Shown here: in pieces, positions 13,624 to 64,000 of the stretch
Numbering within the stretch: position 1 is the first letter of the stretch
Layout: every line of letters begins with the position of its first letter
Source of the DNA: Hyphomicrobiales bacterium
GTDB taxonomy: Bacteria; Pseudomonadota; Alphaproteobacteria; Rhizobiales; Rhodobiaceae
Length of the DNA: 64,000 nt
Assembly (NCBI GenBank): GCA_002869065.1
Contig: PKTR01000003.1
Span: 1-64,000, forward strand
Direction of reading: 5' to 3'
Program-made: the position numbers and the translations under genes
Notes under the pieces: model-generated
Seen by the model: the letters and a program-made list of their open reading frames with translations, nothing else
Databases searched by the model: none
What the model was told of the DNA's origin: nothing

Positions 13624-14322
13624 TTAGCCGCCCAGCACGGTACCGATATCGACACGGATACCCGGGCCCATGGTCGAGGAAATCGCCATGCGCTGCATGT
13701 AGGTACCCTTGGCGCCGGTCGGCTTCGCCTTGGAAACCGCATCGGTCAGCGCCTTGATGTTCTCGATCAGCGCGTCCGCGGTGAACGACGCCTTGCCGAC
13801 GCCGGCATGGACGATGCCCGCCTTCTCGACGCGGAACTGGACCGCGCCGCCCTTGGCGTCGTTGACGGCAGCCTTGACGTCGACGGTCACCGTGCCGACC
13901 TTCGGGTTCGGCATCATGCCGCGCGGGCCAAGGATCTTGCCGAGACGGCCGACCAGCGGCATCATGTCCGGCGTCGCGATGCAACGGTCGAAATTGATTT
14001 CGCCCTTCTGCACCTGCTCCATCAGATCTTCCGCACCGACGATGTCGGCACCCGCCGCCGTCGCCTCTTCGGCCTTGTCGCCGCGGGCGAAAACCGCAAC
14101 GCGCACCGTACGGCCGGTGCCGTTCGGCAGCACGCAAACGCCGCGAACCATCTGGTCCGCATGACGCGGATCGACGCCGAGATTAAGCGCAATCTCGATG
14201 GTCTCGTCGAACTTCGTCTTGGCGCGTTCCTTGACCAGGGTCACCGCTTCTTCGAGCGGGTACGCCTTGGTGCGATCGATGCCCTCGAGGGCCGTGCGAA
14301 TCCGCTTACCTGCCTTGGCCAT
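13624..14322 (-). CDS. rplA: 50S ribosomal protein L1
   Basis: L1 forms the mobile L1 stalk that guides deacylated tRNA out of the E site, and it often represses its own operon. The ATG at 14320-14322 gives 232 residues beginning [17 protein letters not shown], the normal length. A longer in-frame version would run 27 codons into rplK and is rejected. Only 4 nt separate it from the rplK stop, so the two are translationally coupled. Confidence 0.97.
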
Positions 14323-14326
14323 CAGA

Positions 14327-14755
14327 TTACTCCACCACCTCGAGGCCCATCGAACGGGCCGAGCCTTCAACCATGCGCATCGCCGATTCAACCGACGCCG
14401 CATTCAGATCCTTCATCTTCGCTTCAGCGATCTCGCGCACCTGCGCGGAAGTCACCGAGCCGGCGACCGTGCGGCCCGGGGCAGTCGAGCCCTTCGGCAG
14501 CTTGGCGGCCTTCTTCAGGAAGTGGCTGACCGGCGGGGTCTTGATCTCGAACGAGAACGACTTGTCCGTGTAGTACGTGATCACGCACGGGCACGGCGCA
14601 CCCTTCTCGATATCCTGGCTCTGCGCGTTGAACGCCTTGCAGAATTCCATGATGTTCAGACCGCGCTGACCGAGCGCGGGACCGATCGGCGGCGACGGCG
14701 TTGCCGACCCCGCAGGCACCTGAAGCTTCAGGAACCCTTGTACTTTCTTCGCCAT
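14327..14755 (-). CDS. rplK: 50S ribosomal protein L11
   Basis: L11 sits at the GTPase-associated centre of the large subunit and is needed for the RelA stringent response. The 142-residue product begins [20 protein letters not shown] and contains the proline-rich [20 protein letters not shown] signature of the N-terminal domain. A GGGAGA ribosome site precedes the ATG. It is followed at once by rplA. The 183-nt spacer to nusG upstream shows no gene. Confidence 0.98.
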
Positions 14756-49759: not shown

Positions 49760-49873
49760 GGCTCCTCATTTCAGTGCGAGCATAAGCGCACAACAGCTTG
49801 GCATTCAATCCCATAGATTTGCACAAACAAACTTATAGGATGGCTCCCAAACATCATGCCCAAGGAGCACATC

Positions 49874-51373
49874 ATGTACGAGATCGGCCATTTCATCGGC
49901 AGCGAGCGCGTTGCGGGAACGAGCGGACGCACGGCGCCTATCTTCAACCCGGCAACCGGCGAAGTGCAGGGTAACGTCGCACTGGCGAGTGCCGGCGAAC
50001 TGGCTGCGGCGATCGCCAATGCCAAGGCGGCGCAGCCCGCCTGGGCAGCGACCAACCCGCAGAAGCGCGCGCGCGTGATGATGAAGTTCGTCGACCTCCT
50101 GCATCGCGACATGGACAAGCTCGCCGAGGCGCTGTCGCGCGAGCACGGCAAGACGCTGCCGGACGCCAAGGGCGACGTCATCCGCGGTCTCGAGGTCGCC
50201 GAATTCTGCATCGGTGCGCCGCACCTCTTGAAGGGCGAATTCACCGAAGGCGCGGGCCCGGGCATTGACCTGCATTCGGTGCGCCAGCCGCTTGGCATCG
50301 CCGCCGGCATCACGCCGTTCAACTTCCCCGCCATGATCCCGATGTGGAAGTTCTGCCCGGCGATCGCGGCCGGCAACGCCTTCATCCTGAAGCCGTCCGA
50401 GCGCGACCCGTCGGTGCCGATCATGCTCGCCGAGCTGATGATCGAAGCCGGCCTGCCGGCCGGCATCCTCAATGTCGTCAACGGTGACAAGGAAGCCGTC
50501 GACGGCATTCTCGAGCATCCCGACATCGCCGCCATTGGCTTCGTCGGCTCCACCGCGATCGCCGAATACGTCTACACGCGCGGCTGCGCGCACGGCAAAC
50601 GGGTGCAGGCCTTCGGTGGCGCCAAGAACCACATGCTGATCATGCCGGACGCGGACATCGACCAGGCGGTGAACGCCCTGATCGGTGCCGGCTACGGCGC
50701 GGCCGGCGAGCGCTGCATGGCGATCTCGGTCGCCGTTCCGGTTGGCGAAGGCACGGCGGAACGGCTGATGGAGAAGCTGATCCCGCGCGTCGAAAGCCTG
50801 AAGATCGCCCCCTATACCGCCGGCGACGATGCCGATTTCGGTCCGTTGGTGACGGCGGAGGCACGAAACCGCGTGCTTGGCTATGTCGATAAGGGTGTCG
50901 AGGAAGGCGCCGATCTGGTCGTCGACGGCCGCGACTTCAAGATGCAGGGCTACGAGAACGGCAATTTCGTCGGTGGCTGCCTGTTCGACAACGTCACCAA
51001 GGACATGACGATCTACAAGGAAGAGATCTTCGGTCCCGTGCTGTCGGTGGTGCGCGCCAAGACCTATGACGAAGCGCTCGACCTCGCCATGACCCACGAA
51101 TACGGCAACGGCGTCGCCATCTTCACCCGCGACGGCGACACGGCGCGCGATTTCGCCTCGCGCATCAACATCGGCATGGTCGGCATCAACGTGCCGATCC
51201 CGGTGCCGCTTGCCTACTACACCTTCGGCGGCTGGAAGCGCTCCGGCTTCGGCGACATCAACCAGCACGGCCCCGACGCCTTCCGCTTCTACACCCGCAC
51301 CAAGACGATCACCGCGCGCTGGCCGTCCGGCATCAAGGAAGGCGCTGAGTTCGTCATCCCAACCATGAGCTAA
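49874..51373 (+). CDS. mmsA: CoA-acylating methylmalonate-semialdehyde dehydrogenase
   Basis: This enzyme oxidises methylmalonate semialdehyde (valine, thymine and inositol breakdown) to propionyl-CoA and CO2 with NAD+ and CoA. The 499-residue protein starts at 49874 behind AAGGAG. It shows the family NAD-binding GFVGSTAIAEYVY and the catalytic Cys281 in GERCMAIS; the residues around PFNFPAMIPMWKF are typical of MmsA rather than general aldehyde dehydrogenases. It is followed by mmsB across a spacer with a hairpin. Confidence 0.95.
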   Translation: MYEIGHFIGSERVAGTSGRTAPIFNPATGEVQGNVALASAGELAAAIANAKAAQPAWAATNPQKRARVMMKFVDLLHRDMDKLAEALSREHGKTLPDAKGDVIRGLEVAEFCIGAPHLLKGEFTEGAGPGIDLHSVRQPLGIAAGITPFNFPAMIPMWKFCPAIAAGNAFILKPSERDPSVPIMLAELMIEAGLPAGILNVVNGDKEAVDGILEHPDIAAIGFVGSTAIAEYVYTRGCAHGKRVQAFGGAKNHMLIMPDADIDQAVNALIGAGYGAAGERCMAISVAVPVGEGTAERLMEKLIPRVESLKIAPYTAGDDADFGPLVTAEARNRVLGYVDKGVEEGADLVVDGRDFKMQGYENGNFVGGCLFDNVTKDMTIYKEEIFGPVLSVVRAKTYDEALDLAMTHEYGNGVAIFTRDGDTARDFASRINIGMVGINVPIPVPLAYYTFGGWKRSGFGDINQHGPDAFRFYTRTKTITARWPSGIKEGAEFVIPTMS

Positions 51374-51390
51374 GGCGGGCTTACACCCGG

Positions 51391-51429
51391 CAGGATCGCG
51401 TCGACTGGAAAGCAATCGGCGCGATCCTG
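51391..51429 (+). promoter_or_regulatory. Hairpin in the mmsA-mmsB spacer
   Basis: A perfect 10-bp stem (CAGGATCGCG at 51391-51400 with its complement at 51420-51429) encloses a 19-nt loop. No T-run follows. It may stabilise the mmsA message or tune expression of mmsB. Confidence 0.45.
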
Positions 51430-51476
51430 GCTCCATGCGGAGCGGACAAACGAAATCTGCGACAGGAGGAAAAGGC

Positions 51477-52370
51477 ATGAGCCGGATCGCATTCATCGGC
51501 CTTGGCAATATGGGTCTGCCGATGGCCATCAATCTGACCAAAGCCGGCCATGCGGTCACCGCCTTCGACACGGTGCCCGAGGCAATGGAAAAGGCGCAGG
51601 CGGAAGGCATGACGGTCGCGCCGAGTGCGGCCGAGGCGGTTGCCGATGCCGAAACCATCATCACCATGTTGCCGAATGGCAGCATCGTTCTGAAGGTCTA
51701 CGAGACGATCGTGCCGGCCGCGAAGCCCGGCGCGGTGATCATCGACTGCTCGACGATCGATGTTGCGAGCGCCCGTCAGGCGCACGAGATCGCTGAAGCG
51801 GCCGGACTGCTGCCGCTCGACGCACCGGTTTCCGGCGGCACCGGCGGCGCGACGGCCGGCACGCTCACCTTCATGACCGGCGGGTCGCGCGAGGCGTTCG
51901 ACAAGGCATCGCCGGTTCTCGATGTGATGGGCGGCAAGCTGGTCCATTGCGGCACCGGCGGCGCCGGCCAGGCGGCAAAGATCTGCAACAACATGCTGCT
52001 CGGCATTTCGATGATCGGCGCCTGCGAAGCCTTCGCGCTCGCCGAAAAGCTCGGCCTGTCACAACAGGCCGCCTTCGACGTGATCTCGACCTCGTCGGGC
52101 TTCTGCTGGTCGGTCAACACCTATTGCCCGGTGCCGGGCGTCGGGCCGACGAGCCCCGCCGACAACGACTACAAGCCGGGTTTTGCAGCAGAGCTGATGT
52201 TGAAGGACCTCTGCCTTTCGCAGCAGGCAGCCGCCAATGCCACGCAGGCAACGCCGATGGGCGAGCATGCCATGCAGCTCTTCCGCCAGTTCATCGACAA
52301 TGGCGGGGCCGGCAAGGATTTCTCGGGCATCATCGAATATCTGAAGACCGCGAAGCGGGCCGGCGAGTAA
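51477..52370 (+). CDS. mmsB: 3-hydroxyisobutyrate dehydrogenase
   Basis: This NAD-dependent enzyme of valine catabolism makes methylmalonate semialdehyde, the substrate of mmsA. The 297-residue protein starts at 51477 behind GGAGG, with the Rossmann GLGNMGLPMA (residues 8-17), the signature DAPVSGGTGGATAGTLTFMT, and the catalytic lysine in GQAAKICNNML. It is convergent with the methylglutaconyl-CoA hydratase gene 49 nt away. Confidence 0.95.
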   Translation: MSRIAFIGLGNMGLPMAINLTKAGHAVTAFDTVPEAMEKAQAEGMTVAPSAAEAVADAETIITMLPNGSIVLKVYETIVPAAKPGAVIIDCSTIDVASARQAHEIAEAAGLLPLDAPVSGGTGGATAGTLTFMTGGSREAFDKASPVLDVMGGKLVHCGTGGAGQAAKICNNMLLGISMIGACEAFALAEKLGLSQQAAFDVISTSSGFCWSVNTYCPVPGVGPTSPADNDYKPGFAAELMLKDLCLSQQAAANATQATPMGEHAMQLFRQFIDNGGAGKDFSGIIEYLKTAKRAGE

Positions 52371-52419
52371 CGACGATCGTACCAGCCTTAATGCGAAGAC
52401 CTGGGCGGCGGATAGCCGC

Positions 52420-53208
52420 TCAGGCATTCCGCCAGGACGGCGTCTCCTTGTTGAAGAAGGCGGCGATGCCCTCTTGCGTCTCCGCCGTTTCCCAGCGGTC
52501 GGCGAGCGCATTGGCCGTCAGATCGGCGAAGCTCGCCGGATCGTTGCCGGCAAGCTTGCGGCACAGCGCCTTGGCAGCAGCCACCGCGCCGGGCGCGCAT
52601 TGCAGGATGGCAGCGACCTGCTCCTCGACCGCCGCGTCCAGCTCGTCTGCCGGACAGGACCGCGCGACGAGACCAACCCGCATCAGGAAGGCGGCATCGA
52701 ACGCGCTTGCGGTGAAGAACACCTGGCGCGCAAAGGCCTCGCCCATGCGGCGCACCACGAAGGGGCCGATGGTCGCCGGGATCAGCCCAAGCCGCGTTTC
52801 GGTGAGCGCAAAGCGGGTGTTTTCTTCCGCGACGACCACGTCGCAGACGGCGATCAGACCGAGCCCGCCGCCATAGGCCGCGCCGTGCACGCACCCGATA
52901 AGCGGTTTCGGCAACGCGTCCCAGAGCCCGAGCATATCGGCCAGCGCGCGCGCTTCGCCGATCTTGCCGGCGCGGTCCTTGTCGGCCTGCGCCCGCATCC
53001 AGCCGAGATCGCCACCGGCGCAGAAGATACGCCCCTCGCCCGACAGCACGACCGCGCGGACGCTATCGTCCGCAGCCAGCGCCGAGGCCGCATCCGACAG
53101 TTCGGCGATCATCTGGGCATTCATGGCGTTGTGCTTTTCGGCCCGGCACAACACGACGCTGGCAATGCCGCGCGCATCGCGCTCGACGCGGATGGTCTCG
53201 TAGCTCAT
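52420..53208 (-). CDS. liuC: Enoyl-CoA hydratase/isomerase, probable methylglutaconyl-CoA hydratase
   Basis: This crotonase-fold enzyme is expected to hydrate 3-methylglutaconyl-CoA to HMG-CoA. The 262 residues show the oxyanion-hole segments RIFCAGGDLGWM (~60-71) and GAAYGGGLGLIAVCD (~109-123), and the catalytic Glu in ETRLGLIPATIGP. Its assignment within the broad crotonase family rests on the operon: its ATG overlaps the HMG-CoA lyase stop by 4 nt, and MccAB lie just upstream. It is the last gene of the nine-gene operon. Confidence 0.88.
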   Translation of the reverse strand: MSYETIRVERDARGIASVVLCRAEKHNAMNAQMIAELSDAASALAADDSVRAVVLSGEGRIFCAGGDLGWMRAQADKDRAGKIGEARALADMLGLWDALPKPLIGCVHGAAYGGGLGLIAVCDVVVAEENTRFALTETRLGLIPATIGPFVVRRMGEAFARQVFFTASAFDAAFLMRVGLVARSCPADELDAAVEEQVAAILQCAPGAVAAAKALCRKLAGNDPASFADLTANALADRWETAETQEGIAAFFNKETPSWRNA

Positions 53209-54083
53209 TGGCCGTTCTCCCCGTTGCCTGCAGCGGCGGCGAAGCCGGCGACGAGCCGTCCTGCTTCGGCCAGAAGGTCACGGTCGATGCCGGTGTGAAA
53301 CCCGCGCCCTTCAAGCATCGTGACCAGTGTGGACGTGGCAAGGTTGCCCTTGGCGCCGGGCGCGTAGGGACAGCCGCCGAGCCCGCCGACGGCGCTGTCG
53401 AAGACCCGCAATCCCATTTCCAGTGCGACGGCAACATTGGCGAGCGCGTTGCCGCCGGTGTCGTGGAAGTGTCCGGCGAGACTGTCGACCGGCAGCCGTT
53501 CGGCGACGGCTTCGATCATGCGCTCGGTGCCATCCGGCGTTGCCCGGCCGATCGTGTCGCCGAGCGAGATCTCGTAGCAGCCCATCGTGGCCAGCGCCTC
53601 GGCGACATCGGCGACCGCTGAGGGACTGATCAGCCCGGAATAGGGGCACTCGACGACGCAGGAGACGTAGCCGCGCACGGCGACGCCGGCGTCGCGGGCG
53701 GCCTCGATGACCGGGCGGAAACGCACCAGGCTCTCGGCAATCGAGCAGTTGATGTTTTTCTGGCTGAACTCTTCGGACGCGGCGGCGAAGACTGCGATTT
53801 CATCGGCCCCGGCTGCAAGCGCCCGCTCGAAGCCCTTCATGTTCGGCGTCAGCACCGCGTAGTCGACGGCGTCGCGGCGCTTGATGCCGGCCATGACCTC
53901 GGCGGCGTCGGCCAGTTGCGGCACCCATTTGGGCGACACGAAGCTCGTTGCCTCTATCTTTTCAAAGCCGGCGCGCGACAGCAGATCGATCAGCGCGATC
54001 TTTTTTGCCGTCGGAATCAGCGCCTTCTCGTTCTGCAGACCGTCGCGCGGCCCGACCTCGTAGATGCGGACATGCTCGCTCAT
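53205..54083 (-). CDS. Hydroxymethylglutaryl-CoA lyase
   Basis: The lyase splits HMG-CoA into acetyl-CoA and acetoacetate, the last step of leucine catabolism. The 292-residue TIM-barrel protein has YEVGPRDGLQNE (metal-binding Asp and catalytic Arg), the metal site HFHDTGGNALAN and the catalytic loop GLGGCPYAPGA with its cysteine. It overlaps the mccA stop by 4 nt (ATGA) and the hydratase start by 4 nt, so the three are translationally coupled. Confidence 0.95.
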   Translation of the reverse strand: MSEHVRIYEVGPRDGLQNEKALIPTAKKIALIDLLSRAGFEKIEATSFVSPKWVPQLADAAEVMAGIKRRDAVDYAVLTPNMKGFERALAAGADEIAVFAAASEEFSQKNINCSIAESLVRFRPVIEAARDAGVAVRGYVSCVVECPYSGLISPSAVADVAEALATMGCYEISLGDTIGRATPDGTERMIEAVAERLPVDSLAGHFHDTGGNALANVAVALEMGLRVFDSAVGGLGGCPYAPGAKGNLATSTLVTMLEGRGFHTGIDRDLLAEAGRLVAGFAAAAGNGENGQ

Positions 54084-56074
54084 TCAGAAACATCCTCCTC
54101 GAAGCTGACGAGGACGCTGCCGCCCTCGACCGCGTCGCCGACCGCGCAATGCAGCTCGGCAATCGTTCCCGCGCAGGGCGCGATGAGCGCGGTCTCCATC
54201 TTCATCGCTTCCATGATGCCGATGGCGGTACCGGCCTCGACCGTGTCGCCAACCGCCACATCGAGGCGGACGATGGTTCCGGTCATCGGCGCCACCACGG
54301 CATCGCCTTCGTGACCCGTGGCAGCGCCGACCGTCCGGGGGTCAGGGAGAAAGAGGTCGCGAACCACCCCCCGGGAGAGAACGGAAACCAGCCGGCCGCC
54401 ATCGCGCTCGCTGAAGTGGACGCGCGCTTCGACCAGCGTGTCGGCATCGCCGGTGCGCGCGGAAAGGCGCATCCCGTCGATGGTCAGCTCGCGCAGCGTC
54501 AACGGCGCGCTCTCGGCACCGGTCAGCGTGACCGAACCGTCGTCGTTCAGCGTCAGGCGGCGAACGAGCGGTGTGCCGTCGAACACCACCATCAGATCGT
54601 GTTCGGCCGCACCCCACAGGCGCCAGCCGAAATGTGGCGTTGCCGGATCGATATCGAACGCGGCGACGGCGGCGAACGCGATATGGGTTTCCGACAGCGG
54701 CGCGACGGCCGTCAGCGCATCGAGACTTCTGTCGATGACGCCGGTGTCGAAATGTCCGGCGACGAAGCCGTCATGCTGGACCAGCGCGGTGAGGAATTCC
54801 GCGTTGGTGGTGGTGCCGGCGACGTGGGTGTGCCGAAGTGCATCGAGCAGCGTTTCGAGCGCCCTGCCCCGCGTCGACCCGTGGCTGATCACCTTGGCGA
54901 TCATCGGGTCGTAGAACGGGCTGATGACATCGCCGCCGCGCACGCCTGTGTCGTTGCGGGCCCGCCCGCTGAACTCCAGATGCTCTAGCTTGCCGGTCGC
55001 CGGCAGGAAGCCCTTGGTCGGATCCTCGGCGTAGAGCCGCGCCTCGAAAGCGTGGCCGTCGATTGCCAGCTCGTCCTGGATCAGCGGCAGCGGTTCGCCG
55101 GCGGCAACCCGTAACTGCCACTCGACCAGATCGACGCCGGTGATCGCCTCGGTGACCGGGTGTTCCACCTGCAGGCGGGTGTTCATTTCCATGAACCAGA
55201 AGCCGTCCTCGCGCAGCGGACCGGAGCCGTCGACGATGAATTCGATGGTGCCGGCGCCGCAATAGGAGATCGCCTCGGCGGCCTTCACCGCGGCGCTCGT
55301 CATGGCGCGGCGCATCGCATCCGTCATGCCCGGTGCCGGTGCTTCCTCGATGACCTTCTGATGGCGCCGCTGCAGCGAGCAGTCGCGCTCGAACAGATGC
55401 ACCACATTGCCGTGGCTGTCGCCGAAGACCTGCACCTCGATATGGCGCGGCGAGGTGATGAATTTCTCGATCAGCACATGCGGATCACCGAACGACGCCT
55501 GCCCCTCACGTTGCGCCGAAGCGAGCGCCTCGCGGAACGCCTCCGGCACGTCGACCTTGCGCATGCCCTTGCCGCCACCACCGGCGCGGGCCTTGATGAG
55601 AACCGGATATCCGATCTGCTCGGCCTCGCCGGCGAGGAAATCAGGATCCTGGCTGTCGCCCTGGTAACCCGGCACGACCGGCACGCCGGCTGCCGCCATC
55701 AGATCCTTTGCCGCGTCCTTCAGGCCCATCGCGCGGATCGCCTTTGCAGACGGCCCGACGAAGGCGAGCCCGGCGGCCTCGACGGCCTCGACGAAGCCGG
55801 GGTTCTCCGACAGGAAGCCGTAGCCCGGATGAATGGCTTCGGCACCGGTTGAAAGCGCCGCCCCGATGATGCGCTCGGCAACGAGATAGCTCTCGGCCGC
55901 TGGCGAAGCGCCGATATGGACGGCTTCATCGGCCATCTTCACATGCAGGGCGCGGGCATCGGCGTCGGAATAGACGGCAACCGTTTTCACGCCGAGGCGG
56001 GCGGCGGTGCGGATGACGCGGCAGGCGATCTCGCCGCGATTTGCGATCAGAATCTTGGAAAAGGGCTTCGTCAT
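54080..56074 (-). CDS. mccA: 3-methylcrotonyl-CoA carboxylase, biotin-carrying alpha subunit
   Basis: The alpha subunit carboxylates biotin with ATP and bicarbonate. I start it at 56072-56074 (MTKPFSKILIANRGEIACRV), giving 664 residues; AGGATG from the end of mccB serves as ribosome site. Domains are biotin carboxylase N (1-~110), ATP-grasp (~115-320, with KARAGGGGKGM and FMEMNTRLQVEHPVTE), biotin carboxylase C (~335-440), a linker domain and a biotinyl domain with Lys625 in EAMKMET. A geranyl- or propionyl-CoA carboxylase is possible from this subunit alone, but the HMG-CoA lyase neighbour supports 3-methylcrotonyl-CoA. Confidence 0.93.
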   Translation of the reverse strand: MTKPFSKILIANRGEIACRVIRTAARLGVKTVAVYSDADARALHVKMADEAVHIGASPAAESYLVAERIIGAALSTGAEAIHPGYGFLSENPGFVEAVEAAGLAFVGPSAKAIRAMGLKDAAKDLMAAAGVPVVPGYQGDSQDPDFLAGEAEQIGYPVLIKARAGGGGKGMRKVDVPEAFREALASAQREGQASFGDPHVLIEKFITSPRHIEVQVFGDSHGNVVHLFERDCSLQRRHQKVIEEAPAPGMTDAMRRAMTSAAVKAAEAISYCGAGTIEFIVDGSGPLREDGFWFMEMNTRLQVEHPVTEAITGVDLVEWQLRVAAGEPLPLIQDELAIDGHAFEARLYAEDPTKGFLPATGKLEHLEFSGRARNDTGVRGGDVISPFYDPMIAKVISHGSTRGRALETLLDALRHTHVAGTTTNAEFLTALVQHDGFVAGHFDTGVIDRSLDALTAVAPLSETHIAFAAVAAFDIDPATPHFGWRLWGAAEHDLMVVFDGTPLVRRLTLNDDGSVTLTGAESAPLTLRELTIDGMRLSARTGDADTLVEARVHFSERDGGRLVSVLSRGVVRDLFLPDPRTVGAATGHEGDAVVAPMTGTIVRLDVAVGDTVEAGTAIGIMEAMKMETALIAPCAGTIAELHCAVGDAVEGGSVLVSFEEDVSE

Positions 56075-56076
56075 CG

Positions 56077-57684
56077 TCACATCCTGAAGAGGCCGAACTT
56101 GGTGTCCTGAACCGGCGCGTTGAGCGCCGCGCGGAGCGAAAGGGCGACGACGTCGCGCGTCTTGCGCGGATCGATGATGCCGTCGTCCCAAAGCCGCGCG
56201 GAGGCGTAAAGCGGCTGCGACTGGCGCTCGAACATGTCGATGGTCGGCTGTTTGAAGGCCGCCTCGTCTTGTGCCGACCAGCTTCCGCCCTTGGCCTCGA
56301 TCGCGGCGCGGCGCACGTCCGCCAGCACGCCGGAGGCCTGCGCGCCGCCCATCACGGCGATGCGGGCGTTCGGCCACATCCACACGAAGCGAGGCCCGAA
56401 GGCGCGGCCGCACATGCCGTAATTGCCGGCACCATAGGAGCCGCCGACGACGACGGTGACCTTCGGCACCGAGGCGGTGGAAACCGCCGTCACCAGCTTG
56501 GCGCCGTCCTTGGCAATGCCGCCGGCCTCGTATTTCGAACCGACCATGAAGCCGGTGATGTTCTGCAGGAACAGGATCGGAATCTTGCGCTGGCAGCACA
56601 GCTCGATAAAGTGCGCGCCCTTGACCGAGCTTTCGGAAAACAGCACGCCGTTGTTGGCGATGATGCCGACCGGCACGCCGTCGATATGGGCAAAGCCGGT
56701 GACCAGCGTCGTACCGTAGCGCGGCTTGAATTCGGCGAAGTCCGAGCCGTCGACCAGACGCGCGATGATCTCGCGCGCGTCGTAGGGCGTCTTGTCGTTG
56801 GCCGGCACGACACCCATGATTTCATTTGCCGGGTAGAGCGGCCCCTTCGGCACACGGAAATCGACGCTCGGACGCGGCACCGGACCGAGATGGGCAACGA
56901 TCTCGCGAGCGAGCGCCAGCGCGTGGCGGTCGTCGTCGGCGAGATAGTCGGCGACGCCCGACTGGCGCGTATGGGTGTCACCGCCACCGAGCGTTTCGGC
57001 GTCGATGATCTCACCGGTGGCCACCTTCACCAGCGGCGGACCGGCGAGGAAGATGGTGCCCTGCTCGCGCACGATGATGGTCTGGTCGCTCATCGCCGGC
57101 ACATAGGCGCCGCCTGCGGTGCACGACCCCATCACCACCGAGATCTGCGCAATGCCGCGCGCCGACATCTGCGCCTGATTGAAGAAGATGCGGCCGAAAT
57201 GCTCGCGGTCGGGGAAGACCTCATCCTGATTGTTGAGATTGGCGCCGCCGGAATCGACCAGATAGATGCACGGCAGGTTGTTTTCCGCAGCCACTTCCTG
57301 CGCGCGCAGGTGCTTCTTCACCGTGATCGGGAAGTAGGTGCCACCCTTCACCGTGGCGTCGTTGCACATGATCATGCAATCGCGACCCTCGACGCGGCCG
57401 ATGCCGGCGATCGCGCCAGCCGACGGCACTTCGTCATTGTAGAGGCCGGAAGCAGCGAAGAAGCCAACCTCGAGGAACGGCGAACCGGGATCAAGCAGCG
57501 TCGCGATACGATCCCGCGGCAGCAGCTTGCCGCGCGAGACGTGGCGCTGGCGGGACGCTTCGGTACCGCCCTTGAGGATACGCGCCGCCTCGTCGGCCAC
57601 CTTTGCGTATTGCGCCTCCATCGCCCGGGCGTTCTCGGCAAACTCCGGCGAGTTCGTCTCGAGGCTGGTTTGCAGGATCGTCAT
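56077..57684 (-). CDS. mccB: 3-methylcrotonyl-CoA carboxylase, carboxyltransferase beta subunit
   Basis: The beta subunit transfers CO2 from biotin to 3-methylcrotonyl-CoA, giving 3-methylglutaconyl-CoA. The 535-residue protein has the two crotonase-like carboxyltransferase halves (about 30-280 and 290-535), with [15 protein letters not shown] and [20 protein letters not shown] as the oxyanion-forming glycine motifs. It is 2 nt upstream of mccA. The 94-nt spacer to dctM upstream contains a small GC hairpin but no terminator, so the transcript probably continues from the transporter genes. Confidence 0.94.
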
Positions 57685-57778
57685 CCGTCTTCACTCTCCG
57701 TTTGCGGCATGCAGGAACCCGCCCCTCGCGTAGGGGGGCGATCGCGGATCCAGTCGTTCGCTCAGGTTGGTTCGGGGC

Positions 57779-59068
57779 CTACCGCATCATCAAATCCGGC
57801 AGGAACAGCGTGATCTGGGGAAAGGCCAGCAACAGCGCGAGAATAACGATCTCCATCAACAGGAACGGCACGATGCCTCGGAAGATCGTCTTCAACGGAA
57901 CCTGCGTCTGCGCTGCCGCCACATAGGCATTCAGCCCCAATGGTGGCGTCAAAAGCCCGATCTCCACCGTCTTGGTGACGATTATTCCGAACCAGATCGG
58001 ATTGAAGTCGAGCGCCATAGCGGTCGGGAACGCCAGCGGCATGGTCAGCGACAGGATGGCGAGCTGATCCATGAACATGCCGAGCACCAGCAGCACCAGG
58101 ATGATGATCCCCATCACCATTTCGCGGCTCATGTCCGTGGCGGCGACGAATTCAAGCAGGCCATGGGTGATGCGGGTGAAGGCCAGGTAGTTCGAGAAGA
58201 TCGCCGAGCACGCGACGATCGCCACGATCATCACCGTTGCGCGGATCGAGCTGCTGACCGAGCGGTTGAAATCGAGGAAGGACAGGCTGCGCTGCAGGAT
58301 GACGATCACCAGCGAGCCCATGACGCCGAGGGCCGCTGCTTCGGACGGCGAAACGATGCCGCCATAGATCGCGCCGATGACGGCGAACATCAGCAGGATC
58401 ATCGGAATGATGTGGCGGCTGTCCTTGACCGCCTTTTTCAGCACGAAGGGATCGCCTTCCGGTGCCTGATCGGTGGTGTGCGCGATGATCTTGATGACCA
58501 CGGCAAGACCGACGGCCGTCAGCAGGCCCGGGAAGATACCGGCGATGAACAGCTTGCCGATCGAGGTCTCGGTGAGAACGCCATAGACCACAAGCACGAT
58601 CGAGGGCGGCACGACGACGGCAAGAGTGCCGCCGACGCTGACCACGGCGGCGGCCAGACGGTTGGAGTATTTGTGGCTGCGCATCTCCGGAAAGGCAGAG
58701 GTCGCCATCGCCGCGGTCGATGCGGTCGAGCTGCCGATCAGGGCCGCCAGAATGACGGCTGCTGCAACGGTCGCCATCGCCAGACCGCCCTTGACGTGGC
58801 CGATCCAGGATTGGCAGGCGACGATGGCGCGCCGCGTGACGTCGCCCGCCGTCAGCAACTCCGCCATCAGGATGAAGAGCGGAATGGCCACCAGAATGAA
58901 GGACGACGAGGAGTCGAAGAAGGTGCGTTCCAGAACGGCGAGCGCGGGCCGCGGTCCAAGCTGCACCACAATGCCGAGCGTGCCCGCCAGGCCCATCGCA
59001 AAAGCGATTGGCACGCGGATCGCCATCAGCGCCGCCAGTACGAACAATATGATGAGGAATGTCAGCAT
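57779..59068 (-). CDS. dctM: TRAP transporter large permease
   Basis: This is the main membrane component of a sodium-coupled TRAP importer. The 429-residue hydrophobic protein has the expected 11-12 membrane segments and family motifs such as GSSTASTAAMATSAFPEM, VVPPSIVLVVYGV and FMDQLAILSLTMPLAFP. It follows dctP by 74 nt. In this operon it should import the acid handled by the acyl-CoA synthetase and MccAB. Confidence 0.95.
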   Translation of the reverse strand: MLTFLIILFVLAALMAIRVPIAFAMGLAGTLGIVVQLGPRPALAVLERTFFDSSSSFILVAIPLFILMAELLTAGDVTRRAIVACQSWIGHVKGGLAMATVAAAVILAALIGSSTASTAAMATSAFPEMRSHKYSNRLAAAVVSVGGTLAVVVPPSIVLVVYGVLTETSIGKLFIAGIFPGLLTAVGLAVVIKIIAHTTDQAPEGDPFVLKKAVKDSRHIIPMILLMFAVIGAIYGGIVSPSEAAALGVMGSLVIVILQRSLSFLDFNRSVSSSIRATVMIVAIVACSAIFSNYLAFTRITHGLLEFVAATDMSREMVMGIIILVLLVLGMFMDQLAILSLTMPLAFPTAMALDFNPIWFGIIVTKTVEIGLLTPPLGLNAYVAAAQTQVPLKTIFRGIVPFLLMEIVILALLLAFPQITLFLPDLMMR

Positions 59069-59142
59069 CGAGGCGCCGCGTGCTCCGAGGTGGCGGGCGG
59101 CCGCACACGCGACCGCCCCCGTTTCAGGTTCAGAACCGCGAA

Positions 59143-60144
59143 CTATTCGCTGGTCAGCTTCCGGTAGGTCTCGAGCACGGCTTTCGCCGCATCGCTGCCG
59201 ATCCGCTCGGCCCAGTCGGTGCTGACGGCTCCGAGCGCCTCGGTCACGGCTGCCAGTTCCTCAGGCGAGAACTGGTATGTGTCGATGCCGGCGGCCTTCC
59301 ATTCCTCGATCAGACCGCCGACCGAGTCGTCCTGCGCCTTCGCGACATGCATGGCGGTTTCGTCGCCAAGCGTGAGCATGGCGTTCTTGGCGGCGTCCGA
59401 CAGGCCATTGAACAGGTCCGTGCGGACCACCATGACGAAGCTGTAGCCACCGAACGAGCCGTTGGTCGAGATATGGCTGACGACCTCGTTCAGCTTGTAG
59501 CCCGGCACCGAGGCCAGCGGGAACAGAACCGCGTCAAGACGCCCGCGTTCCACCGCCGTGTAGACTTCCGGACCCGGGATCGAGATGCCGACGCCGCCGA
59601 GCGCGCGGGCCGTCATCGCCTGGGTGGAGCCGGAGGTGCGGATATCGAGCGCCTTCCAGTCGGCCGGCGCGCCGAGCCGCTTCTTGGCGAGCACCTGATA
59701 GGGCGGCAGCACAAAGCCGAAGATCGGGGTCACGCCGGCGGCGAGGATCTCATCGCGCAGCGGGCCTTCCTGCAGCATCGCCTGCAGCGCCTTGGTGCCC
59801 TGCACCGCCGAACCGTAGAAGCCCGGCAGGCCGACCACCGAGTTCAGCGGCAGCGTTTCGGCATGGTAGGAGGGCCCGAGCAGCGCCGCATCGAGGATGC
59901 CGCCGCTGACCGCGTCAAGCTGGGCTTTCGACTTCGCCGCCTGCTGCGAGGGGAAATGTTCGAACTTGATCGCGCCGTCGGTCGCCTTTTCGACCGCCGC
60001 CATCCACTTGGTCGTCCCTTCGACCGAGACGATATGGCTGGTCGACTGGAAGTCGCCGAGGCGAAGCGTTTCGGCCTGTGCCGTCGCCACGCCGATGGCG
60101 AGCAGTCCGGCGAGTGCGGTTACCGCTTTCATTGCCGTTTTCAT
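59143..60144 (-). CDS. dctP: TRAP transporter substrate-binding protein
   Basis: The periplasmic binder delivers substrate to DctQM. From the ATG at 60142-60144 (GGGAGGAA site) it has 333 residues, with a signal peptide cleaved after ATAQA (residue 24). Longer in-frame sequence runs into dctQ and is not coding. The ligand-binding arginine conserved in DctP proteins is probably in KALDIRTSGSTQAM, so an organic acid ligand is expected. Gene order dctQ-dctP-dctM puts the binder in the middle. Confidence 0.93.
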   Translation of the reverse strand: MKTAMKAVTALAGLLAIGVATAQAETLRLGDFQSTSHIVSVEGTTKWMAAVEKATDGAIKFEHFPSQQAAKSKAQLDAVSGGILDAALLGPSYHAETLPLNSVVGLPGFYGSAVQGTKALQAMLQEGPLRDEILAAGVTPIFGFVLPPYQVLAKKRLGAPADWKALDIRTSGSTQAMTARALGGVGISIPGPEVYTAVERGRLDAVLFPLASVPGYKLNEVVSHISTNGSFGGYSFVMVVRTDLFNGLSDAAKNAMLTLGDETAMHVAKAQDDSVGGLIEEWKAAGIDTYQFSPEELAAVTEALGAVSTDWAERIGSDAAKAVLETYRKLTSE

Positions 60145-60167
60145 GTGTATTCCTCCCTGTAAGTTTT

Positions 60168-60650
60168 TCACGCGCGCTCGATCTCTCCTGCGAGCGCATC
60201 GGTGATCAGACGCACGACGAGTACGCCGCATCCGAGCGGGATAGCGGCGTAGGCCCAGCCGAGCGGCCAATCGATCACCCCGTATTCGATGTCCCCATTG
60301 GCAATCGCTTTCAGGGCAAATTTTCCGGACGTCCATGTGACCGCGGCGAAGAACACCGCGGGCAGCAAAAGGCGCACCTTTTCAAGAACGGTTGCCAGCG
60401 TGGCGGGCAGGTCTCGCGGCAGAAAATCGAGCGAGAGGTGCCCGCCATCCCGGAACACACGCGACAGCGACAAGGTCGCGAGTGCGGGCATCAGAAACAG
60501 CTCGGTCAGCTCGAACTGGATCTGCAAAGGCCGATTGAAAATCAGCCTGAGCAGAATATCCGCGTTGATGAGAGCCGCGACTGCGACAAGCGCGAGACAC
60601 CCCCCCAGATGAAGGATGTCCTCGACTTTGGTCAGGATTCTTTCGAACAT
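60168..60650 (-). CDS. dctQ: TRAP transporter small permease
   Basis: The 160-residue small membrane subunit has four predicted helices (the first around LHLGGCLALVAVAALINADILL) and the DctQ signature region FNRPLQIQFELTELFLMPAL. I prefer the ATG at 60648-60650 (MFERILTKVEDI) over a GTG nine codons earlier, since AGGAAAGG lies between them. It follows the hotdog dehydratase gene by 38 nt. Confidence 0.9.
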   Translation of the reverse strand: MFERILTKVEDILHLGGCLALVAVAALINADILLRLIFNRPLQIQFELTELFLMPALATLSLSRVFRDGGHLSLDFLPRDLPATLATVLEKVRLLLPAVFFAAVTWTSGKFALKAIANGDIEYGVIDWPLGWAYAAIPLGCGVLVVRLITDALAGEIERA

Positions 60651-60688
60651 GGTCGAATGTGCCTTTCCTGCAGTCACGGCCCGCTCAC

Positions 60689-61828
60689 TCAGCGCTTGGG
60701 CAGCTCGACGATTGCCGAACCGATGGCCGACAGTTCGCCATCCTGCTGTTCCGCGCGCTGCTGGACTTCCACCAGATAGCGGCCGTTATCCTCGAACTTC
60801 CGGGTAACGGTTCCGTGGATCAGGATGATGTCACCTTCAGGATTGTGCCGGCGGACCTGGCACTTCGCCTGTGACAGGAAGCCGTCATCGCCCATCCAGT
60901 TGGTGATCTGATGGGTCAGCCACGAGGTCCGCTCCGGCCCGTAGTCATAGGCGCCCGGGGCGCCGACCTCGATGGCGAATTCTTCTTCCCAATGCACCCG
61001 CTCCGGGCAGTCCGGGATGCCGAAGCGGTTCTTGATGCCTGCGCTCGGGTGCTTCTGCTGCAGCTGCCAGGCGAGCTTGTTGGCGCGGATGTAGAGACCG
61101 CCCCAGCCCTGCGCGTAGGCGATGAAGCCGGTCGCGGTCATCGGGCCCTTGACCATGGTCGGCAGCTCTTCGCCTTCCATCACGTCGTCCCAGTAACGCT
61201 TCTCGGCGCCGCGGATCGTTTCCTTCTCATAGTACTGGTAGTACTCGTCGAGCTCTTCCTGGGTATAGACCCGGCGGCCCTTGGCCTTCGCCTCGGTATA
61301 CTTGGTGCCGTTCTCGCGCGCCTGGTCACGGTCGGTGCGGAAGCACCAGCTGTCAGCGTCGGCAAGCAGGTCGCCGGTCTTCACGTCGAAGAAATCGACG
61401 TGATAGATCTGCTGCACCGCGCGCCCGGCAAAACGGGTGTCGTGCTCGATCAGGTCCTTCAGGTAGGCCTCTGTGCGGAACTCGGTGTTGCGCGGGATCG
61501 GCTTGTGCCACGACCAGTTGGCCCCCGACCACATGGCGTGCACGCCCGGCAGGCCGCCGACATAGCCCGAAATGATGCGGCTGGTGGCGAACAGGAAGCT
61601 CGGCAGCGCGATGACGTCGCCATATTGCGTGGTCTTGGCGTATTCCGGATCGCACCACAGCGGATTGTCGTCGCCAATGCCGTGCGCGTAATGGCGGATG
61701 TTGTCGCGGGTCGCCTCGTAGCACCACGGCTCGACGGTATTCTCGATCTTAACGCCGAGACGCTTGCGCAGGTCGTCGAGGCCTTCCTGCGTGATCTTCG
61801 GGAACTTCCTCACTGTCATGTCGTCCAT
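60689..61828 (-). CDS. Double-hotdog MaoC/FAS1-like dehydratase domain protein
   Basis: The 379-residue protein has two hotdog folds. The N-terminal half (~20-180) has the FAS1-like/MaoC N-terminal dehydratase pattern (RHYAHGIGDDNPLWCDPEYA). The C-terminal half (~205-375) has the second hotdog with WDDVMEGEELPTMVKGPMTA. Such proteins hydrate enoyl-CoAs or dehydrate 3-hydroxyacyl-CoAs. Between an acyl-CoA synthetase and MccAB it could dehydrate 3-hydroxy-3-methylbutyryl-CoA to 3-methylcrotonyl-CoA; that is inference. The AGGAGAAG site supports the ATG at 61828. Confidence 0.85.
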   Translation of the reverse strand: MDDMTVRKFPKITQEGLDDLRKRLGVKIENTVEPWCYEATRDNIRHYAHGIGDDNPLWCDPEYAKTTQYGDVIALPSFLFATSRIISGYVGGLPGVHAMWSGANWSWHKPIPRNTEFRTEAYLKDLIEHDTRFAGRAVQQIYHVDFFDVKTGDLLADADSWCFRTDRDQARENGTKYTEAKAKGRRVYTQEELDEYYQYYEKETIRGAEKRYWDDVMEGEELPTMVKGPMTATGFIAYAQGWGGLYIRANKLAWQLQQKHPSAGIKNRFGIPDCPERVHWEEEFAIEVGAPGAYDYGPERTSWLTHQITNWMGDDGFLSQAKCQVRRHNPEGDIILIHGTVTRKFEDNGRYLVEVQQRAEQQDGELSAIGSAIVELPKR

Positions 61829-61867
61829 TTGTTTCTTCTCCTGAGAATGTCTGTCGACGCCGGCGGA

Positions 61868-63427
61868 TCACTCCGCAGCGGCAAATTTCTTCGCTTCCTG
61901 ATCGCGCAGGATTTTACGGTTCACCTTGCCGGCGGGGGTCTTCGGCAACGTGCTGACGAATTCGATCTGACGGGGATATTCGTGCCGCGCGAGACGCGCC
62001 CGCACGTGCTCCTGAATGCTCTCGACGAGGCCGGGCTCTTTGGCCTGCTTCAAGATGACGTAGGCCTTTACGACCTGGCCGCGCAGCGCATCGGGGGTGC
62101 CGATAACCGCGCATTCGGCGACTGCCGGATGGCTGAGGACCGCGTCCTCGACCTCGACAGCCCCGATGGTCCAGCCGGCCGAAATGATGACGTCGTCGGC
62201 CCGCCCGCCGTGATAAAAATAGCCGTCCTCGTCAACGCGCCCGAGGTCCTTGGTCTGGAACCACTCGCCCCGCTTCTTGACCATGAGTTCGCCGGTTTCG
62301 CCGGGCGCGGCGGGACTGCCGTCGGGGCGCTGCACCTCGACCTCGACACCGGGCACGGCCTTGCCCATGGCGCCGTCGCGCACCTCGAGGTCGTCCGCAC
62401 CGGGATAGTTGGCGATGATCACACCGATTTCGGTGGTGCCATACATCGAGCGAACCTTGGTACCGAACACCCGCTCGACATAGTTCGCGGTCTCGCCGTC
62501 GATCGGCTCACCGGTGAAGGAGAGTTTCTCGAAGCTGTAGGTGTAGTCCTCGGCGGCGCCGGAATTGCGCATCATGCGGTAGTGCGTGGCGGCGGCCGTC
62601 AGATTGGTGATCTCGAAATCGTGCAGCGCCTTGAGCAGGCGGACCGGATCGAACTTGCCGCTGAACGTGCCCGTCGAGACACCCATGGCGAGCGGCGCCA
62701 GCGTGCCATGCCACAGGCCGTGGCCCCAGGCCGGCGATGACGGGCAGAAGAAGCGGTCGCCCGGACGGATGCCGGTTGCGTAGAGCGCGGCAACCATCAG
62801 GGTGACGATCGACTGGTGGCTGTGGTGAACGGCGGCCGGCAGGAGCCGCGTGGTGCCTGAGGTGTATTGCAGCACGGCAAGATCGGACCCAGCGGTATCC
62901 CAGTCGTAGGTCGTCGGCAGATCGTTCAGCCCGTCGAGGAAAGCCTGGTCGAGGATCGTGACGTTCTTCGCCTCGGCCTCGAGCGCGTCGGGCGCCTTTT
63001 CCGCATTGGTGAAAAAGATCTCCGGCTTGCAGTCCTCGGCCCGCAGGCGAATGCCGTCCGGCCCGAACAACGAGAACAACGGCACGGCGACGGCGCCGCT
63101 CTTCATCACGCCGAACATGGCGCAGTAGAACGGCAGCGACGGTTCGATCATGACCGCGACCCGGTCACCCTTCTTGATGCCCTTCGCCGTCAGGTAGTGG
63201 GCAACCTGCGAAGCGCGGCGCGAGATCTCCTCGAAAGTGATCAGTTCGTCGGCACCATCGGCATGCGCGATCCGCAGCGCGATCTCATCGCCATCGACGT
63301 GCCGGTCGATGCATTCGTGCGCGATGTTGAAACGTTCACGCGTCCCGTCGAACAGCTCCCAAAGCCCCTCTTTCGAATACTGGGCCTGTGCATCCGCGTA
63401 GGACGTGAATTCCGTCAGCCGGGTCAT
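61868..63427 (-). CDS. AMP-dependent acyl-CoA synthetase
   Basis: This adenylate-forming enzyme activates a carboxylic acid to its CoA thioester. The 519-residue protein starts at 63425-63427 behind GGAGG; 27 in-frame codons upstream are not conserved-looking. Motifs are YTSGTTRLLPAAV (P-loop, ~186-198), YGTTEIGV (A5), GRADDVIISAGWTIGAVEVE (A8) and the catalytic Lys501 in TPAGKVNRK. The P-loop is unusual: the common TSGTTGxPK is replaced by TSGTTRLLPAA, so the usual glycine and lysine are absent. First gene of the operon; it probably activates the acid brought in by the TRAP system. Confidence 0.9.
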   Translation of the reverse strand: MTRLTEFTSYADAQAQYSKEGLWELFDGTRERFNIAHECIDRHVDGDEIALRIAHADGADELITFEEISRRASQVAHYLTAKGIKKGDRVAVMIEPSLPFYCAMFGVMKSGAVAVPLFSLFGPDGIRLRAEDCKPEIFFTNAEKAPDALEAEAKNVTILDQAFLDGLNDLPTTYDWDTAGSDLAVLQYTSGTTRLLPAAVHHSHQSIVTLMVAALYATGIRPGDRFFCPSSPAWGHGLWHGTLAPLAMGVSTGTFSGKFDPVRLLKALHDFEITNLTAAATHYRMMRNSGAAEDYTYSFEKLSFTGEPIDGETANYVERVFGTKVRSMYGTTEIGVIIANYPGADDLEVRDGAMGKAVPGVEVEVQRPDGSPAAPGETGELMVKKRGEWFQTKDLGRVDEDGYFYHGGRADDVIISAGWTIGAVEVEDAVLSHPAVAECAVIGTPDALRGQVVKAYVILKQAKEPGLVESIQEHVRARLARHEYPRQIEFVSTLPKTPAGKVNRKILRDQEAKKFAAAE

Positions 63428-63512
63428 CCCTGCTTGCCTCCAAAACAATGTGTCGGACCGCCACCCAATGGCTGCCCGCCTCATTGACAAGGGTAGAGAT
63501 TGCGGCAAAGTA

Positions 63513-63546
63513 TTGTCAATACGCTTATATTATTGTATATAGACAA
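63513..63546. promoter_or_regulatory. AT-rich inverted repeat between the synthetase and iclR-type gene
   Basis: TTGTC (63513-63517) and GACAA (63542-63546), with partly complementary ATAC/GTATAT inner arms, form an imperfect palindrome in an unusually AT-rich divergent spacer. It is a reasonable operator for the adjacent IclR protein. No clear -10/-35 pair could be assigned on either strand. Confidence 0.4.
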
Positions 63547-63573
63547 CAATTAGCTGATTTTCCGGAGGCGATC

Positions 63574-64000
63574 ATGGCGAATGAAGACAGGAATACGGCG
63601 GCGAAACGGGCGGTACCCGCGGTGACGCGCGCCCTCGCAATCTTGCGGTTTCTGGCGCGTTCGCCCGTACCCGTCGGGGTCAATCCGATGGCCCGCGAGC
63701 TCAAACTGGTGCCGAGCACATGCCTTCACATCCTGCGTGTCCTGCAGGATGAGGGGATGGTGGATTTCGATTCGGTGACGAAGCGCTACTCGATCGGAAT
63801 CGGCATCCTGCCGCTGGCGCGGTCGGCCCTTCAGCGCAACAGCTTCTCGACGATGATTCAGCCCCGCCTGTCGGAACTGTCGATGAAATTCGGCGTCACC
63901 AGCATCGCCACGCAGATCTCCGAGCCCGGCCAGATGGTGGTCGTGGCGCTGTCGCAAGCCTCGGTTCCGTTCCGCCTCCAGGTCGATCTCGGCAGCCGCT
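63574..64000 (+). CDS. IclR family transcriptional regulator, 3' end outside window
   Basis: The visible 142 codons begin MANEDRNTAAKRAVPAVTRA with CGGAGG upstream. They contain the IclR winged helix (about residues 15-75: ILRFLARSPVPVGVNPMARE, STCLHILRVLQDEGMVDF) and the start of the effector domain (LPLARSAL and on). The gene is divergent from the nine-gene operon, 146 nt away, and probably regulates it in response to the acid or its CoA ester. It is cut by the right window edge. Confidence 0.92.
   Translation, partial: MANEDRNTAAKRAVPAVTRALAILRFLARSPVPVGVNPMARELKLVPSTCLHILRVLQDEGMVDFDSVTKRYSIGIGILPLARSALQRNSFSTMIQPRLSELSMKFGVTSIATQISEPGQMVVVALSQASVPFRLQVDLGSR

Follow-up and report, generated by a model that had tools for sequence, protein, structure and literature searches.

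The stretch of DNA analysed here (the window, 64,000 nucleotides in full) comprises positions 1 to 64,000 of contig PKTR01000003.1 (C3) of a Hyphomicrobiales bacterium (GenBank assembly GCA_002869065.1), whose 4.04-Mb genome is present in 7 contigs. Towards its right end, nine open reading frames (ORFs) lie on the minus strand between 52420 and 63427, and opposite to them begins a divergent arm that continues beyond the window. The nine genes appear to constitute an operon of the liu type known from leucine breakdown that has been re-tooled for an imported acid. It encodes a tripartite ATP-independent periplasmic (TRAP) importer, coenzyme A (CoA)-dependent enzymes, 3-methylcrotonyl-CoA carboxylase (MCC) and 3-hydroxy-3-methylglutaryl-CoA (HMG-CoA) lyase. 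The features, listed from the synthetase to the crotonase and then outwards into the divergent arm, are:

61868..63427, minus strand: acyl-CoA synthetase, AMP-forming (PF00501, 203.8 bits; PF13193, 85.5 bits)
60689..61828, minus strand: double-hotdog MaoC/HadAB-like acyl-CoA dehydratase (Pfam FAS1_DH_region/MaoC-like), with a putative role on 3-hydroxy-3-methylbutyryl-CoA
60168..60677, minus strand: DctQ, TRAP small permease (PF04290, 74.9 bits)
59143..60144, minus strand: DctP, TRAP solute-binding protein (above Pfam cut-off)
57779..59068, minus strand: DctM, TRAP large permease (PF06808, 293.1 bits; TIGR00786, 331 bits, above cut-off)
56077..57684, minus strand: MccB, MCC beta subunit (Pfam carboxyl transferase; 804.5 bits to 3u9r)
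54080..56080, minus strand: MccA, biotin carboxylase and biotin carrier subunit (biotin carboxylase domains and Biotin_lipoyl)
53205..54083, minus strand: HMG-CoA lyase (Pfam HMGL-like; NCBIfam PRK05692, 461.3 bits, cut-off 246)
52420..53208, minus strand: crotonase, putative methylglutaconyl-CoA hydratase (Pfam ECH_1; PRK07468, crotonase/enoyl-CoA hydratase family, 365.7 bits, cut-off 350)
63483-63546, minus strand: candidate divergent operator region with three elements conserved upstream of the synthetase
63533-63546, minus strand: operator element 1, TTGT-N6-ACAA (motif match in the window)
63511-63521, minus strand: operator element 2, TATTGACAATA, which includes a TTGACA box (motif match in the window)
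63483-63490, minus strand: operator element 3, TTGTCAAT (motif match in the window)
63574..64000, continuing past the window end to C3:64359, plus strand: IclR-family regulator (75% identical to the IclR of a Pseudosulfitobacter plasmid cassette)
C3:64363-64791, beyond the window, divergent arm, after IclR: PaaI-like thioesterase (PF03061, 52.3 bits)
C3:64788-66011, beyond the window, divergent arm, after the thioesterase: class III CoA-transferase (PF02515, 405.2 bits)

The first-pass annotation of this DNA had described nine same-strand genes with gaps of at most 94 nucleotides and several 4-nucleotide overlaps, and all nine ORFs are found at that place and on that strand, with gaps of 39, 11, 23, 74, 94, -4, -4 and -4 nucleotides from synthetase to crotonase, three of them being 4-nucleotide overlaps. 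A terminator scan of the minus strand returned no candidate within the 94-nucleotide gap between DctM and MccB. The gene families named at that stage are borne out by Pfam and NCBIfam profiles and by the MCC comparison, and all three TRAP subunits (DctP, DctQ, DctM) score above their Pfam cut-offs. In case of the synthetase, the best NCBIfam models are an acetate-CoA ligase and MbcS, both far below cut-off, and no model shown reaches its cut-off. MccB matches the MCC beta chain 3u9r far more closely than geranyl-CoA carboxylase 5ikl (804.5 versus 487 bits), and the carboxylase is therefore an MCC; a route for geranyl-CoA or terpenoid acids was rejected on the same ground. According to the accessible text of PMC4673880, a diagnostic active-site phenylalanine tells MCC-type from geranyl-CoA-type beta subunits; residues 155-171 of the window's MccB, four phenylalanines included, are identical to the 3u9r chain, and the exact residue number of the published rule could not be mapped. 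None of the nine proteins matches the acyl-CoA dehydrogenase family in Pfam, so that the stated lack of isovaleryl-CoA dehydrogenase holds for the operon; the genome encodes this enzyme on contig C4 (~282.4-283.7 kb).

The operon had also been called self-contained within 52420-63427, and this view has to be given up, as the divergent arm with IclR, PaaI-like thioesterase and CoA-transferase from 63574 onwards also belongs to the system. An annotated Pseudosulfitobacter plasmid carries the same arm (IclR, PaaI family thioesterase, CoA transferase) opposite an AMP-binding protein, a MaoC-type protein and TRAP genes.

How far this arrangement extends to other bacteria was assessed with the dehydratase, of which 306 relatives were confirmed in the genome collection. 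The counts given in the following refer to the best 80 of these 306 loci, which were picked by the dehydratase, have fetched flanks of 10 kb or less, and end at contig edges in some cases. The first group (L044-L078, 35 loci) belongs mostly to Roseobacter-group bacteria, plus Martelella, Thalassospira, Roseibium and Oricola, and the second (L079-L123, 45 loci) mostly to Burkholderiales, with some other proteobacteria. In the first group, the core consists of synthetase (35), dehydratase (34), IclR (34), CoA-transferase (33) and thioesterase (28), with DctP in 34, DctM in 34 and DctQ in 23 loci, whereas the second group has synthetase (45), dehydratase (41), CoA-transferase (35), IclR (34) and thioesterase (27) together with a Bug binding protein (37). 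The few dehydratase absences (L045, L095, L102, L114, L120; also L128) are misses of the ORF caller, and the five among the 80 loci each have a match in the homology search; the synthetase was called in 80 of 80 loci. As this gene order is also found in other genomes, the cluster is more than a chance neighbourhood. The cassette is real and conserved, and besides synthetase, dehydratase, CoA-transferase and IclR its core comprises an importer whose type, TRAP or Bug, depends on the group. A neighbourhood search of this kind had been proposed along with the first-pass annotation. Comparing one pair each, the alpha- and beta-type proteins are 38% (CoA-transferases), 35% (thioesterases) and 42% (IclRs) identical. 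Genes for the lower pathway adjoin the cassette less often: MccB, MccA, HMG-CoA lyase and hydratase were found in 14, 11, 10 and 9 first-group loci and in 3, 2, 2 and 1 second-group loci, respectively. Relatives of the window genome's isovaleryl-CoA dehydrogenase, at a threshold of at least 50% identity, are absent from all 35 first-group flanks and present in one of the second group (L083). Among 11 additional loci, L129 and L131 are differently laid out and L134 and L135 have 34% paralogs. Paralogs also occur elsewhere: in Martelella radicis (L068), a single 21-kb stretch contains both the cassette and, adjacent to CoA-transferase relatives, a dehydratase paralog of 34% identity. A related system is found on plasmids of Salipiger abyssi and Agrobacterium pusense (L160, L161), where dehydratase relatives of 33% identity share a locus with two CoA-transferases, a CoA ester lyase, an ABC transporter and a GntR regulator.

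The cassette is probably also regulated. When 41 regions upstream of the synthetase were compared (the window, the 35 first-group loci and 5 further genomes), the consensus TTGY-N6-ACAA was present in 41, WATTGACAAY in 40 and TTGTCAAY in 39 of them. The pair of elements 1 and 2 occurs once each in 41 of the 80 fetched loci (34 of the first and 7 of the second group), always before the synthetase, and nowhere else on either strand of the 1,573,881 bases fetched. Of the 45 second-group loci, 42 have element 1, taken alone, within ~450 nucleotides before the synthetase, and 24 have element 2 there in a relaxed form. In the C4 stretches 248.5-286 kb and 296-308 kb, no site of this type was detected even with up to 3 and 2 mismatches allowed. 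These observations make the 63483-63546 region the candidate site at which IclR would act. The TTGACA box is only suggestive of a promoter, because the promoter scan gave no sigma-70-like site in 52300-63700.

The most informative observation is the way in which MCC genes are attached to the cassette. In 15 chosen loci, with the start of the longest ORF taken as the end point of each distance (L137, in which DctM was not called, is not among them), MccB starts ~25-103 nucleotides past DctM on the same strand. The position differs in other loci: MccB lies 8 nucleotides from the CoA-transferase in the divergent arm of L074 and 18 nucleotides past the Bug gene in L087, and in L112 and L083 the cassette is flanked by MCC genes. 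In the MccB tree, 16 cassette rows including that of the window form one clade (support 99/98), which is separate from the C4 copy of the window genome, from L074/L077 and from L083/L087/L112. The MccBs closest to this clade are those of genomes G018 and G034, both located outside the cassette, that of G034 within a liu-type operon (L164). From the separate tree groups and the different positions it follows that the cassette acquired MCC genes repeatedly and from different lineages, and as this happened at three different cassette positions, the cassette probably delivers 3-methylcrotonyl-CoA. The three MccB genes in the 45 second-group flanks have a probability of 0.0015-0.010 if a chance of 0.5-1% per locus is assumed; the first-group loci are kin, and no chance probability is given for their 14 of 35, which include L073 (genome G423, with a fragmented MccB, counted as MccB-bearing and not as a clean operon-type copy). 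Loss may occur as well: Salinihabitans flavidus (L055) has a short HMG-CoA lyase ORF of ~142 codons after DctM (14126-14554) and no MccB, which suggests that its MCC module has decayed.

The enzyme that would connect the imported acid to MCC is the double-hotdog protein. This fold is supported by its predicted model (predicted local distance difference test score, pLDDT, 66.8) and by the fold matches, which are led by hydratases and dehydratases, thioesterases ranking below them. To the fused double-hotdog dehydratases 4v12 and 5i7n and to the mesaconyl-CoA hydratase MeaC (8hgn) it has only 14-15% identity, and it differs from them by a tryptophan that replaces the histidine in the N-terminal half and by the spacing Asp-x5-His of the dyad in the C-terminal half, in which the aspartate and the histidine are kept in 83 of 83 orthologs.

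On this basis, we propose that the divergon serves the uptake and complete breakdown of a β-substituted isovalerate under IclR control, most likely of 3-hydroxy-3-methylbutyrate (HMB, 3-hydroxyisovalerate), and we give this proposal about an even chance. DctPQM would import the acid, the synthetase would form its CoA ester at the expense of ATP, and the class III CoA-transferase would probably do the same with another acyl-CoA as donor. The double-hotdog enzyme would then eliminate water to give 3-methylcrotonyl-CoA, which MccAB would carboxylate to 3-methylglutaconyl-CoA; the crotonase would hydrate this to HMG-CoA, and the lyase would split HMG-CoA into acetyl-CoA and acetoacetate. IclR would act at the 63483-63546 region, and the thioesterase may release CoA that is trapped in side products. 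The parts of this scheme differ in strength. Carboxylation, hydration and cleavage are predicted from well-known families, the crotonase being assigned to its step by family and by its place in the operon. Import, CoA activation and β-elimination are inferred, and the roles of CoA-transferase and thioesterase are only weakly indicated. Entry at 3-methylcrotonyl-CoA is in our view probable, an estimate that we lowered slightly because the co-occurrence test described below repeats the synteny, which leaves the repeated acquisition of MCC genes as the main argument. For HMB as the main substrate the scales are evenly poised; it is preferred over 3-methylcrotonate or isovalerate because the dehydratase is a constant part of the cassette, albeit one by which the loci were picked. 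The liu-like plan with a new entry, in which importer, synthetase and dehydratase stand in for isovaleryl-CoA dehydrogenase, had been suggested from the window alone, and synteny, repeated MCC recruitment and the conserved operator now support it.

A further correction is that leucine breakdown probably depends on the operon, too. The isovaleryl-CoA dehydrogenase on C4 is the best of eleven genome-wide matches to the acyl-CoA dehydrogenase N-domain (681 bits to the solved structure 4o5m), and a second MccB (66% identical) and a second MccA (56% identical) are encoded on the same contig. The operon's HMG-CoA lyase is the only close copy in the genome (next match 33% identity, E 2.9e-11), and the same holds for the methylglutaconyl-CoA hydratase (next match 33% identity, E 1.5e-26), and leucine breakdown in this organism therefore probably relies on these two operon genes. 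Within 21 relatives, an HMG-CoA lyase of at least 63% identity occurs only in the window genome and in G018, all others having at most 44%; a dehydratase ortholog is missing from two other genomes of the same genus (G001 without match, G002 with a 36% match). In G018, which has no dehydratase match, the 63% HMG-CoA lyase has as neighbours a GntR/MocR-like ORF and genes of a distant TRAP transporter (L163, 8473-15264); this locus is perhaps another HMG-CoA-lyase-linked acid importer.

A number of observations speak against the proposed HMB pathway. Most cassette loci have no MccB in their flanks (21 of 35 and 42 of 45), and the MccB of G018 is 81% identical to that of the window even though G018 lacks a dehydratase match. 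One metagenome-assembled genome (G459) carries the cassette and no MccB above 46%. In all 32 first-group genomes searched (33 requested, L057 left out), MccB is present somewhere; with a Rhodobacterales baseline of 177 of 196 genomes, the chance of 32 of 32 is 0.04, which means little. Operon-type MccB (82-90%) is found in 9 of the 32 and as fragments in G423, and the other 22 have a 66-74% copy. The second group has MccB of at least 61% identity in 44 of its 45 genomes, a figure to be read without a Burkholderiales baseline. Of 397 genomes of the window's order, 197 have MccB (E 1e-150), namely 9 of the 10 cassette genomes (dehydratase ortholog of at least 69%) versus 188 of 387 others (Fisher p 0.010); this test is not independent of the synteny, because in 5 of these 9 genomes the MccB gene is itself part of the cassette. 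Of the other five cassette genomes, G006, G244, G256 and G375 have MccB elsewhere above the cut-off, and in G171 a 74% MccB fragment, cut off by the end of a contig, adjoins isovaleryl-CoA dehydrogenase. Genome-level co-occurrence was hence dropped as an independent support, as it gave none. MaoC and HadB enzymes use an Asp-x4-His catalytic dyad, from which the Asp-x5-His spacing seen here differs, and in the region of the conserved loops the model is not reliable enough for the residues to be placed. DctP is only 12-22% identical to solved TRAP binding proteins, and its sequence and predicted model returned only generic TRAP relatives, from which no ligand was inferred. Finally, HMB alone does not explain why a synthetase and a CoA-transferase are present together.

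What alternatives exist for HMB as the substrate? The imported acid could be 3-methylcrotonate (senecioate) or another prenyl-type acid, in which case the synthetase would make 3-methylcrotonyl-CoA directly, and the double-hotdog enzyme would be a hydratase that buffers or salvages 3-hydroxyisovaleryl-CoA. The downstream genes would be the same, hydration and dehydration are one reversible reaction, and a thioesterase and a CoA-transferase would be useful for overflow and salvage; the dehydratase, however, accompanies the synthetase in 80 of 80 loci (picked by dehydratase) and thus looks obligate rather than like a side reaction, and we consider this explanation unlikely. It is somewhat less probable still that the operon represents the lower half of leucine or isovalerate breakdown together with an isovalerate importer, with the synthetase forming isovaleryl-CoA and the dehydrogenase being supplied from C4. 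The distribution of the close lyase and hydratase genes (operon only) and of the dehydrogenase and the second MccAB (C4) would agree with it, as would the nine genomes with operon-type MccB, four of which have no other MCC-type MccB (the other five having a second copy of 66-70%). Yet both the dehydratase and the duplicate MccAB of the window genome would then be superfluous, and a relative of isovaleryl-CoA dehydrogenase at 50% or more is found in the flanks of 1 of the 80 loci only.

The cassette might also handle an unrelated acid, such as a branched dicarboxylate (3-hydroxy-3-methylglutarate or a mesaconate-like acid), and have MCC neighbours for another reason. This would fit the many cassettes without adjoining MCC, the CoA-transferase, whose best models are of the succinate-glutarate, oxalate and mesaconate types (all below cut-off), its Pseudosulfitobacter homolog, whose nearest solved relatives include succinate-HMG CoA-transferase, and the 33% paralogs next to two CoA-transferases and a CoA ester lyase. 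As MCC genes of separate lineages joined the cassette at different positions, and as HMG would require neither a dehydratase nor MCC, we regard it as rather unlikely, a shade less so than the isovalerate alternative. Quite improbable is a substrate with another β leaving group on the isovalerate skeleton, e.g. β-valine, for which the hotdog enzyme would be a CoA-dependent lyase. β-Alanyl-CoA ammonia lyases are hotdog proteins. These lyases are named in the accessible text of PMC4619459, which describes a Pseudomonas sp. SBV1 cluster of shared logic (ligase, lyase, MCC, HMG-CoA lyase). That cluster has an amino acid transporter where a TRAP importer is found here, and hydratases and dehydratases top the fold matches.

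This bva cluster of SBV1 is the nearest published layout that we found, and by analogy it indicates that a plan of transporter, CoA ligase, β-elimination enzyme and mcc/HMG-CoA lyase genes with entry at 3-methylcrotonyl-CoA occurs in nature; its ORF table, as far as the accessible text goes, shows no isovaleryl-CoA dehydrogenase, either (PMC4619459). Its own parts are a PaaK-like ligase, enoyl-CoA-hydratase-like ammonia lyases and the amino acid transporter, whereas the window cassette is set apart, by description only, by another synthetase type, the MaoC/HadAB-like double hotdog, TRAP, class III CoA-transferase and IclR. The window operon and the liu operon of G034 agree in the order of their genes for MccB, MccA, HMG-CoA lyase and methylglutaconyl-CoA hydratase. 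The liu operon has isovaleryl-CoA dehydrogenase in front and a synthetase-like gene between MccA and lyase, both of which the window operon lacks at these places, and in the latter, genes for an importer, an acid synthetase and the double-hotdog dehydratase precede the shared ones, and IclR and operator are its own. A description of bacterial HMB or 3-methylcrotonate import, or of this cassette, was not found in the open-licence papers searched, which does not show its absence from print.

Two neighbouring regions may be mentioned. Convergent with the operon, the plus strand at 49856-52370 encodes an MmsA-like aldehyde dehydrogenase and a 3-hydroxyisobutyrate-dehydrogenase-like protein (valine-type), and beyond the CoA-transferase (C3:66150-71776) a TetR-like regulator is followed by apparent export genes (membrane-fusion-like protein, fused ABC ATPase, permease), as judged from translations.

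Taken in its widest form, the proposal states that an IclR-controlled HMB route is common to alpha- and betaproteobacteria with different importers, that a double-hotdog enzyme with altered dyad dehydrates a tertiary β-hydroxyacyl-CoA, that MCC was recruited several times, and that leucine breakdown depends here on the operon's lyase and hydratase; for this combination, which is read from genes and their neighbourhoods, the chances are somewhat below even. Comparison with a standard has identified 3-hydroxy-3-methylbutyryl-CoA in strain HxN1, where its role is reported as unclear (PMC8141488); if that strain has the cassette, it would offer a candidate role for this compound. More generally, the cassette is a specific candidate for the genes with which marine and soil bacteria utilise a leucine-derived branched hydroxy acid, and its dehydratases are a candidate family for enzymes that act on a tertiary alcohol thioester. 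The ligand of the TRAP and Bug binding-protein pair is now directly testable, and genes for leucine breakdown may be hidden inside other operons.

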